Virus record (IMG/VR): IMGVR_UViG_3300044631_000905
Coordinates: 1-64,000 of that record
Direction: 5' to 3' (one strand)
DNA from: a virus
DNA length: 64,000 nt
The notes under the pieces are model-generated. The model saw nothing but the letters and a program-made list of their open reading frames with translations. It was not told where the DNA came from and searched no databases. Made by a program: the position numbers and the translations under genes. Below are positions 9,009 to 61,350 of the stretch, piece by piece; the first letter of the stretch is position 1; every line of letters begins with the position of its first letter.

Positions 9009-10393
9009 TGGCACAGTATAGCAAACACTACGAGGATTTCCTACCACAGGAAAAAACAAACTTTGAGGTAGTCATGATTGCCGACGCAAACGGCAATGTT
9101 GGGCCTGGTAGTTCTGGTTCTTCTGTATCTTTTAGTGAAACAGCAGTAGATGCTTTTGGTCGTCTCAAAGTTACCGAACCATTCACTCTTGGTGATTACA
9201 AGCACCTTTATGCTATTGACCCAAACTTTTTAGATAACCTAACTAATGGTGGCACAGCAACATATAATATCAATAAGGCTTGTGCTACTTTAGCAACCAC
9301 ATCAAACACCACTTCTCGTGCTGTTCATCAAACTAAATTTTATCATCATTACCAGCCTGGTAAGTCACAGATGATTTACAGTTCGGTATGTTTTGGTTAT
9401 GCTCAACAGAATGTAACCAAAAGAACTGGATACTTCGATGATAGAGATGGTATCTACTTTGAGCAAGTTGGTGGTGCTACTGCCAACGGAACAACCAATG
9501 GCACTCTAAACTTTGTTGTTCGTTCTTATGTTAGCGGCACTGCTAGCGAAGCAACATTAGGAACTTACAAAAGAAGAGTTCCACAATCAGAATGGAACAT
9601 TGATAAGTGTGATGGAACTGGTGTTTCTGGTTTCAACATCAATACTTCAAAAACACAACTAGTTTATATTGACTTCCAATGGTTGGGAGTTGGTAGAGTT
9701 CGTTGTGGTTTTGTTCATAATGGGCAACTTATTCTAGCACACCAATATTATTGTTCTAATGAACTTGATGAAGTTTATATCGCAAATCCTAATCTACCAG
9801 TAAGATGTGAGATACTAAACACAGGTACAACATCTGGTGGTTCATTTGATCAGATTTGTTCCACTGTTATGTCAGAAGGTGGATATGTTGAAAGTGGTAT
9901 TGACTTCATGTATATGATGACAGCATCTAGGTCAGTTGCTGGTGGTGCTACTCTACCTGTTTTGGCAATTCGTTTGAAGAATACATTTCAAACTTACCCC
10001 AACAGAATTTCGGTTAGGTTAAATAATATTGCTTTGTATCCTTCTGGAGAAACATTTTCATTCCAAATTGTTAAATTACCAAGTCAATCAAACTTGACTG
10101 GCACACTTAATTGGACCGATGTTGATACCAATAGTGGCGTTCAATATTCAGTTGGTGCTACTGGTTATACGGCAGGAAGTGGCGATGCTTTATTTGGTGG
10201 TTTTGTAACTGCTGGTTCGTCACAGAACTCTTTGTCGTCTGCTTCGACAGGTTCTATTTCTGCTGCCAAGAAAAACATTATTGTTCAAAATTTTGACTCT
10301 ACTTCATCAGAAGTATATGTTGTGTTAGCAACAAATATTGGTAATAACTCTGGAACAATTAGAGCAGCACTTCAATGGAGGGAAATCTACTAA
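9008..10393 (+). CDS. Virion structural protein
   Basis: 461 residues. Resembles a structural protein widespread in marine T4-like phages: AVDAFGRLKVTEPFTLGDYKH near residue 45, then an HQTKFYHHYQPGKSQ block, a VRCGFVHNGQLILAHQ segment and a long beta-rich C-terminal half. Its position inside the late head/neck operon supports a virion role. The exact location in the particle is not known. The stop overlaps the next start (TAATG). Confidence 0.75.
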   Translation: MAQYSKHYEDFLPQEKTNFEVVMIADANGNVGPGSSGSSVSFSETAVDAFGRLKVTEPFTLGDYKHLYAIDPNFLDNLTNGGTATYNINKACATLATTSNTTSRAVHQTKFYHHYQPGKSQMIYSSVCFGYAQQNVTKRTGYFDDRDGIYFEQVGGATANGTTNGTLNFVVRSYVSGTASEATLGTYKRRVPQSEWNIDKCDGTGVSGFNINTSKTQLVYIDFQWLGVGRVRCGFVHNGQLILAHQYYCSNELDEVYIANPNLPVRCEILNTGTTSGGSFDQICSTVMSEGGYVESGIDFMYMMTASRSVAGGATLPVLAIRLKNTFQTYPNRISVRLNNIALYPSGETFSFQIVKLPSQSNLTGTLNWTDVDTNSGVQYSVGATGYTAGSGDALFGGFVTAGSSQNSLSSASTGSISAAKKNIIVQNFDSTSSEVYVVLATNIGNNSGTIRAALQWREIY

Positions 10394-10824
10394 TGAAAAA
10401 CTATAAAGAAATCAAACATCTTGCTGAAGAAGCAAAGAAAAAAGAGAAAGAAGAAAAGCGTTTCTGTAAGCTCTGCCAAAAACCAGAGACAAGAAAAGAA
10501 TGTTCCTATGGCGAGAAAGCATGGGATCGTTTCGCAGTTCCAGTTCAATCTATCAAAAGAGAAGAAGTAGAACTAGACGAAGCTGCTTGGACTAAAAAGG
10601 AGGGACAGAATAAGAATGGCGGTCTCAACGAAAAAGGTAGAAAGTCATACGAAAGAGCTAATCCTGGAAGCGACCTTAAGGCACCTTCAAAGAAAGTTGG
10701 AAATCCCCGCAGGGCGTCATTTTGTGCCAGAATGAAAGGACTAAAAAGTAAATTGACAAGTAAAAAAACAGCAAGGGATCCCGACAGCAGAGTAAATAAA
10801 AGCTTGAGGGCTTGGAACTGTTAG
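10393..10824 (+). CDS. DUF6321-like basic protein
   Basis: The start is ATG 10393, coupled to the upstream stop and preceded by GGAGGG; an in-frame ATG at 10375 is upstream but lacks such a site. The 143-residue product has a charged coiled N-terminus, CKLCQKPETRKEC (zinc-like), and a C-terminal domain (WTKKEGQNKNGGLNEKG, YERANPGSDLKAP, NPRRASFCARMKG). That domain matches the DUF6321-type family common in aquatic phages. It ends in RAWNC. Basic and probably nucleic-acid-binding; no activity is established. Confidence 0.72.
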   Translation: MKNYKEIKHLAEEAKKKEKEEKRFCKLCQKPETRKECSYGEKAWDRFAVPVQSIKREEVELDEAAWTKKEGQNKNGGLNEKGRKSYERANPGSDLKAPSKKVGNPRRASFCARMKGLKSKLTSKKTARDPDSRVNKSLRAWNC

Positions 10825-10828
10825 ATTT

Positions 10829-10871
10829 CATACCTTTTCATTCTTATAAATAGTAGTAATGAAAAGGTATG
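10829..10871 (+). promoter_or_regulatory. 14-bp hairpin with late promoter TATAAATA in the loop; 3' arm holds the RBS
   Basis: CATACCTTTTCATT (10829-10842) is perfectly complementary to AATGAAAAGGTATG (10858-10871). The 15-nt loop contains TATAAATA (10845-10852), an exact T4 late promoter element. The AAGG of the 3' arm is placed to serve ATG 10875. Transcripts from upstream would sequester the ribosome site, while transcripts starting about 10857-10859 would lack the 5' arm. The known T4 gene 49 (endonuclease VII) uses the same logic. Confidence 0.8.
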
Positions 10872-10874
10872 AAA

Positions 10875-11285
10875 ATGTCAGAGAAAATTTGTACTAGGTG
10901 TAAGAATTCAAAACCAAGAACACCAGAATATTTCCCACTTCACAATAAATGTAAAGATGGTTTAGATAGTTGGTGTAGAGCTTGTAGAGCGTCTTATCGT
11001 AGTGAAATAAACAGAGGAAAATTTAGAGGACAACTTACTGATGATGAGGTAAGAAAACTGAAGCAACAAATCACATGTGATATATGTGGTAAAGAAGATA
11101 CTGGTGGATCCAAGAACAATAAACATCTAGGCAAAGTAAAATCTTTGGTTATGGATCATGACCACCACACTGGAAAATTTAGAGGAATGTTATGTAACCA
11201 CTGTAATAGAGGATTGGGCAACTTTTTTGATAATGTAAATACTTTGGAAAATGCCATTTTGTACCTAAAAAAGTGGAATTGCTGA
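10875..11285 (+). CDS. Recombination endonuclease VII-like protein
   Basis: 136 residues from ATG 10875 (alternative ATG 10869). The N-terminal zinc-ribbon CTRCKNSKP...CRACR is followed by CDICGKED and by MDHDHHTGKFRGMLCNHCNRGLG, the catalytic and zinc-binding signature of T4 endonuclease VII (gp49) and free-standing HNH relatives. The expected reaction is cleavage of branched DNA or mismatches. It may be a resolvase aiding packaging or a mobile homing-type nuclease; placement between structural genes fits either. Late-only translation is suggested by the upstream hairpin. It ends in KKWNC. Confidence 0.82.
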   Translation: MSEKICTRCKNSKPRTPEYFPLHNKCKDGLDSWCRACRASYRSEINRGKFRGQLTDDEVRKLKQQITCDICGKEDTGGSKNNKHLGKVKSLVMDHDHHTGKFRGMLCNHCNRGLGNFFDNVNTLENAILYLKKWNC

Positions 11286-51607: not shown

Positions 51608-51768
51608 TTACCTGCTTAGTAACTAACTGGGGTGTAACCATAGTCCTAGGTCTTCTGCTAACTGCTTCTGAGTGGTTGGCAAAAACAAAAAGATTTGAGG
51701 AAAATGGATTGCTAGATTTAATTACAAATTTCTTAAAAATTCTATTGCGTAAGGGAGACCATAAATAG
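51604..51768 (+). CDS. Small membrane protein (54 aa)
   Basis: 54 codons: one membrane segment (NWGVTIVLGLLLTASEWLA), then a basic amphipathic tail (LDLITNFLKILLRKGDHK). Its last codons and stop are embedded in the following terminator stem and loop. A holin-like or lysis-timing role is possible but unproven. Confidence 0.6.
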   Translation: MITCLVTNWGVTIVLGLLLTASEWLAKTKRFEENGLLDLITNFLKILLRKGDHK

Positions 51769-51782
51769 GGTCTCCCTTTTTT
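51751..51782 (+). terminator. Terminator with ATAAATA in its loop
   Basis: AAGGGAGACC (51751-51760) pairs with GGTCTCCCTT (51769-51778), followed by T. The loop is ATAAATAG, which also contains the upstream stop codon TAG. Confidence 0.9.
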
Positions 51783-51789
51783 ATAAATA
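51761..51789 (+). promoter_or_regulatory. Two late promoter motifs, ATAAATA and TATAAATA
   Basis: ATAAATA (51761-51767) is the terminator loop and TATAAATA (51782-51789) follows the T run, 35 nt before ATG 51825. Either could start the Ig-like virion gene. Confidence 0.55.
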
Positions 51790-51824
51790 AATTTTAGAAA
51801 TCGGTAAATATTTGGAGTGTATCC

Positions 51825-58776: not shown

Positions 58777-58804
58777 ATAAATACCTCCGTGATGGAGGTT
58801 TTTT
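58777..58804 (+). promoter_or_regulatory. Composite late promoter, terminator stem and RBS before 58808
   Basis: ATAAATA (58777-58783) runs into the stem ACCTCC/GGAGGT (58783-58788 and 58794-58799), followed by six T. GGAGG of the 3' arm lies nine bases before ATG 58808. This is the same architecture as at 46687-46724. Confidence 0.65.
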
Positions 58805-61313: not shown

Positions 61314-61320
61314 ATAAATA
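61314..61320 (+). promoter_or_regulatory. Late promoter motif ATAAATA
   Basis: ATAAATA lies 30 nt before ATG 61351 and directly precedes a G-rich/C-rich hairpin. Confidence 0.45.
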
Positions 61321-61350
61321 GGGGGGTGCTGTCACACCCCCCCCCCCCCC
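61321..61350. repeat. G6/C14 hairpin and 14-base C homopolymer before ATG 61351
   Basis: GGGGGGTG pairs with CACCCCCC-type sequence (a CA dinucleotide intervenes), and 14 consecutive C (61337-61350) touch the ATG. No Shine-Dalgarno site can fit. Tract length could vary naturally or be a sequencing artefact. Confidence 0.8.

Follow-up and report, generated by a model that had tools for sequence, protein, structure and literature searches.

A regulatory logic that joins a late promoter to a hairpin over the ribosome site has been established for I-TevI, segB, mobE, e, soc and 49 (PMC2988022, PMC3014915). Among these are homing endonuclease genes, namely I-TevI and segB of T4 and mobE of Aeh1, in which read-through RNA hides the ribosome site, whereas RNA that begins at a late promoter in the hairpin region leaves it free (PMC2988022). 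The leader of T4 gene 49, which encodes endonuclease VII (gp49), likewise places a late promoter and a ribosome-site hairpin (fold of -19.4 kcal/mol) before a gene with the Endo VII motif. Cyanophages have a free-standing Endo VII-motif nuclease of their own, F-CphI of S-PM2, on which the DHHRN family of homing endonucleases, defined by the residues D-H-H-R-N, was founded (PMC6083498), and the late motif reported for cyanophages is NATAAATA (PMC2984593). Here, we describe a DHHRN-type gene and its leader in a 64-kb stretch of viral DNA (hereafter the window), which is part of an 87,628-base IMG/VR record. We consider it likely that a free-standing homing-type endonuclease gene of this family was inserted with its own leader into the 3' end of a DUF6321 gene, and that read-through RNA leaves it silent, with its own late promoter as the sole source of expression.

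Results

A late-promoter motif in the loop of a perfect hairpin

BLAST matches to Synechococcus and Prochlorococcus phages identify the window phage as a T4-like cyanophage, and its genes run in the order gp15-like, small terminase, virion protein, DUF6321 protein, nuclease, small genes, large terminase and tail sheath. In the cultured phage S-SRM01 (L188 28216-32177), the labels 'tail sheath' and 'terminase large subunit' seem to have been exchanged: it is at the gene called tail sheath that the match to the large terminase starts.

The gap between the stop codon of the DUF6321 gene and the start of the nuclease gene is occupied by a hairpin (Table 1) with 17-nt arms that are 100% complementary and a 15-nt loop (10843-10857) that contains TATAAATA. 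The Shine-Dalgarno-like AAAAGG within the 3' arm lies 7 nt upstream of the start codon, and an alternative in-frame ATG falls within the same arm. The preliminary description of this DNA had reported a perfect 14-bp stem, which is real and perfect, except that its length is 17 bp and its position is shifted by three bases; the late promoter was correctly placed in the loop and the ribosome site in the 3' arm. RNA folding yielded a z-score of -4.2, with 0 of 200 shuffles equally stable. When loops of 3-40 were considered, the stem was the longest perfect one in the window, and the maximum among 20 Markov-randomised windows was 12 bp, with a stem of at least 14 bp in none.

Table 1. Coordinates of the features discussed (window positions unless a locus is named).
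Feature	Position	Strand	Evidence
Target (host) gene with C-terminal DUF6321 domain	10393..10824	+	PF19846 E=1e-21; phrog_727, phrog_11180
Putative imported 3' tail of the DUF6321 gene (co-conversion tract), start approximate	10735..10824	+	DNA versus residue identity
Inserted segment: hairpin and endonuclease gene	10825..11273	+	Absent from empty-site relatives
5' arm of hairpin	10826..10842	+	Inverted repeat; non-coding arm conserved in homologues
Candidate T4/cyanophage-type late promoter TATAAATA in loop	10845..10852	+	Motif match; conservation; NATAAATA late motif (PMC2984593)
Predicted late transcription start	10858	+	T4 spacing, from general knowledge
3' arm with AAAAGG (10862-10867) and alternative ATG (10869)	10858..10874	+	Inverted repeat, folding
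DHHRN-type (Endo VII motif) endonuclease gene, 136 aa from ATG 10875	10875..11285	+	PF02945 E=1.2e-15
TGGAATTGCTGA: native DUF6321 end, now endonuclease C-terminus and stop (right junction)	11274..11285	+	Identity to empty sites
S-SRM01 promoter-in-loop hairpins	L188 42278-42306 (S-SRM01 142278); L190 7740-7773 (S-SRM01 207740)		Upstream of nuclease genes

The exact TATAAATA motif occurs 3 times in 64 kb against 3.0 expected by chance, so that strand bias, placement and conservation are what can serve as evidence for the promoter. The ATAAATA motif favours the + (coding) strand by 17:0 in the window and by 91:7 in S-SRM01, and these biases appear as expected for a working late promoter. In T4, TATAAATA lies at -13 to -6 relative to the transcription start. 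This spacing predicts that late RNA would begin at the first base of the 3' arm. The leader therefore resembles the late-promoter/RBS-hairpin class in two respects: folding predicts a stem that hides the ribosome site and start in read-through RNA, and motif and spacing suggest a promoter placement that would leave late RNA without the 5' arm.

The hairpin is conserved among homologues of the nuclease

We collected relatives of the nuclease from 33 IMG/VR loci and S-SRM01. Nearly all close relatives have TTCATACC-T(4/5)-CATTAC ... ATAAATA ... GTAATG-A(4/5)-GGTATGAA directly upstream of the gene, and the same hairpin with an ATAAATA-type loop was found upstream of 20 sampled homologues, which bears out the proposal on a point where it had been exposed beforehand, as a stem not conserved among relatives was to count against it. 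Among the 20 intact homologue leaders that were tabulated for co-variation, the length of the T/A run (arm length of 6 or 7) agrees between the arms in every case, and ATAAATA is exact in 17 and has a single mismatch in the other three. The best nuclease tree has four coordinated changes of arm length, with just one on strongly supported branches, and at the base of the L012 stem an A-U pair is replaced by G-C, a single compensatory change. The compensatory changes sought in homologues are thus present as matched arm lengths, whereas those of the substitution type are otherwise sparse. Folding predicts an openness of the start region of 0.05-0.26 in read-through RNA as opposed to 0.54-0.88 in the predicted late RNA.

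Some members of the nuclease family do not have an intact hairpin. In L025-L027, the 5' arm has been lost while the promoter and gene are kept, and the start region is predicted to be open (0.63) even in the long RNA, and in L005, L006 and L032 the promoter and 3' arm have been lost together. In the S-SRM01-type majority of homologues, the start codon is within the stem and AAGG is merely 1 nt away from it, so that a hidden Shine-Dalgarno sequence describes the window better than it does all homologues. A separate scan located the arm pattern upstream of this nuclease gene only, besides unrelated chance palindromes, and on these grounds we rejected the idea of a general regulatory cassette that serves other genes.

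Hairpin and gene form one insert at the DUF6321 3' end

The same gene order without the nuclease, i.e., an empty site, is present in L063-L065, L068 and L069, and the body of the DUF6321 gene in close empty-site relatives is 93-99% identical to that of the window. Alignment with L063-L065 shows 94-96% identity up to 10738, then a drop, and 92-93% again from 11272-11273, the position at which identity to the empty sites of L063-L065 and L068 restarts at the right junction. The sequence TGGAATTGCTGA ends DUF6321 in the empty site and ends the nuclease in the window, and in L025-L027 the displaced native DUF6321 end persists downstream of the nuclease. Because hairpin and gene constitute a single insert that is absent from empty-site relatives, the earlier suggestion of a travelling regulatory cassette is supported. 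The same nuclease and hairpin also occur in L012 and L041 behind another upstream protein end (..ANKVKW stop in L012).

Over its final 90 nt, the DUF6321 gene of the window matches nine empty-site relatives at 54-60 of 90 bases and 25-28 of 30 residues; for the empty L063-L065 group, the agreement is 54-57 bases although 27-28 residues agree. The 160 nt directly upstream of this tail are 93-99% identical to the closest relatives (L063-L069), and the tail itself matches that of the occupied locus L007 at 75 of 90 bases. This pattern indicates that the last 90 nt of the target gene arrived with the insert, as the apparent trace of flank co-conversion during homing. Sequence comparison therefore finds optional insertion, empty sites in close relatives and flank co-conversion together, as in the DHHRN family. 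A literature search on DUF6321 found nothing.

A different nuclease with the same motif (~31-34% identical) occupies the same DUF6321 3' site in L067, L145, L146 and L147. It has its own late-promoter hairpin with TATAAATA in the loop, which is unrelated in L067, L145 and L147 and fully paired in L147, and this nuclease and that of the window both end in YL(K/T)KWNC at the captured stop. A third DHHRN-type relative is found at the same site (~1944-2402) in L148 and L149, where stop and start overlap and the late promoter is absent. Past L149, the second nuclease family has further relatives (L150-L184), among which a late-promoter hairpin was not found. We tentatively suggest, as a possibility that falls short of the insertion itself in likelihood, that several DHHRN lineages have repeatedly used the DUF6321 3' end as a homing hot-spot, each introducing a tail with synonymous differences by which the occupied allele may escape cutting, and that promoter-in-hairpin leaders have arisen there independently to act as plug-in insulators against the late operon instead of early/late timers.

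The nuclease is best placed with the DHHRN family

The residues D94, H95, H97, R103 and N111 are invariant in the family alignment, and pairwise dN/dS within the family is 0.04-0.11, which indicates that the protein is maintained. Among solved structures, the best sequence match is Hpy99I (E=5e-10, residues 4-134), which, unlike the window nuclease, is a bacterial restriction enzyme adjoining a methylase gene (PMC6083498). In the catalytic part, F-CphI is 57% identical across 47 residues; however, it targets psbA, unlike the window nuclease, and its late promoter comes after a terminator, whereas that of the window lies in the ribosome-site hairpin. The match to T4 endonuclease VII is weak (E=0.18), with 31-36 residues alone aligning with its chains. 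The window protein ends ~20 residues past the nuclease motif and so does not have the C-terminal region of gp49, which in turn is missing the N-terminal zinc-ribbon-like part of the window protein. PF02945 is missing from 7 of the 9 cyanomyovirus genomes searched, and S-SRM01 has a distinct 'endonuclease VII' close to the late sigma factor gene. The proximity to Hpy99I, the invariant DHHRN residues, the patchy occurrence of PF02945 and the separate 'endonuclease VII' of S-SRM01 point to a homing-type nuclease and not to gp49, and the protein is best filed, from its sequence, in the DHHRN (F-CphI) family, with putative cleavage activity.

We rejected orthology with T4 gene 49, i.e., the gp49 resolvase, since the nuclease motif is the only part shared and since the gene lacks the constancy of such an orthologue, being absent from near-identical relatives. 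The idea of conserved regulation of an endonuclease VII homologue, raised in the preliminary description, is consequently not supported: the T4 gene 49 hairpin is unrelated in sequence to that of the window and has its promoter in the 5' arm, which suggests a resemblance of function, not of descent.

Promoters and hairpins at other sites

In S-SRM01, two other nuclease genes (142306 and 207752) are closely preceded by a hairpin that has TATAAATA in its loop, and a wider scan of that genome returned nine + strand hairpin matches, several of which are chance-like. An ATAAATA of its own lies upstream of each S-SRM01 nuclease gene checked except one, as opposed to 28 of 98 other genes sampled. In front of homing endonuclease genes in S-SRM01 (L190 9780-9850) and S-PM2 (L198, before F-CphI), the T-tract of a strong terminator runs into TATAAATA, which is a second way of insulating a gene from upstream RNA. 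The window also contains a terminator fused with late promoters (51751-51790), in which a perfect 10-bp hairpin has ATAAATA in its loop and a T-tract that runs into a second TATAAATA. At 58777-58803 and 61314-61345, ATAAATA stands immediately upstream of terminator-like hairpins, and RNA that originates there might start past the 5' arm and escape termination.

Discussion

In the mechanism that we propose, a gene with the DHHRN (F-CphI/Endo VII) motif would have entered the DUF6321 3' end, between the genes for the small and large terminase, together with its own leader. Polycistronic read-through RNA would fold the 17-bp hairpin, which would hide the ribosome site and start codon, and RNA from the late promoter of the loop would begin at the 3' arm, could not fold the hairpin and would be translated. 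The endonuclease would in this way be made solely from its own late promoter and be uncoupled from the operon that received it.

The same hardware in T4 gene 49, e and I-TevI serves as an early/late timing switch, in which early or middle read-through RNA is kept silent, and such a role here is conceivable yet unlikely. Homologues of T4 late genes (gp15, TerS, TerL and sheath) surround the insert, with NATAAATA motifs upstream, and nearby sigma-70-like sites are no commoner than chance. Because these neighbours are of the T4 late type, the read-through RNA is probably the late operon RNA itself, which suggests that the hairpin may serve to insulate the gene from read-through in the operon and not to set early apart from late expression. 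What the gene gains may be freedom from a strong late operon instead of delay.

Translational coupling, by which a ribosome terminating at the DUF6321 stop opens the stem and the endonuclease is translated only with the upstream gene, stays a rival since such a ribosome could partly open the stem: in occupied loci, 0-3 nt separate the stop from the 5' arm, and in the eight loci tested the predicted openness of the start region, 0.05-0.25 otherwise, rises to 0.27-0.68 once the 15-18 nt from the stop onwards are blocked. Coupling would, however, leave the late promoter held in the loop unexplained, and L025-L027 retain the promoter without the stem, which makes this reading less probable still than a timing switch. 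We regard as improbable, to a greater degree again, that the palindrome acts at the DNA level, either as the operator of a dimeric repressor overlapping the late promoter or as a cruciform cut by the nuclease itself. Co-varying arms would be compatible with any palindrome, I-TevI acts as a repressor of its own late promoter (PMC2988022), and the nuclease motif is common to a junction resolvase; on the other hand, the spacer varies from ~11 to 22 nt among homologues, with the promoter invariably preceding the 3' arm, which suits a hairpin better than a protein site of fixed geometry, and furthermore the start codon position coincides with the 3' arm and the second nuclease has a different hairpin. 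An intrinsic terminator or RNase processing site, which a strong stem-loop between two genes might suggest, is scarcely credible, as the hairpin is not among the terminator-like sites of the window, the placement of promoter and start codon would go unexplained, and the U-tract expected after the stem is absent, for which we rejected a terminator.

Silence in read-through RNA and expression from its own late promoter, perhaps as insulation from the late operon, remain our preferred reading of the locus. Compared with I-TevI, segB and mobE, the window case, described here from its sequence, differs in nuclease family, in host phage group and in insertion site, and it sits inside a late gene cluster. 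The design is a known trick of the mobile genes of T4, and what is new is the insertion site and the nuclease family in which the switch is found. Our findings extend the T4/Aeh1 regulatory design to cyanophages and to another homing-endonuclease family, and they define a putative homing site with empty and occupied alleles in nearly identical phages. The evidence that the switch travels with its gene, as a component of the mobile unit, is unusually clean. Among the carriers is S-SRM01, a Synechococcus phage available in culture, which makes the predicted regulation and homing directly testable.
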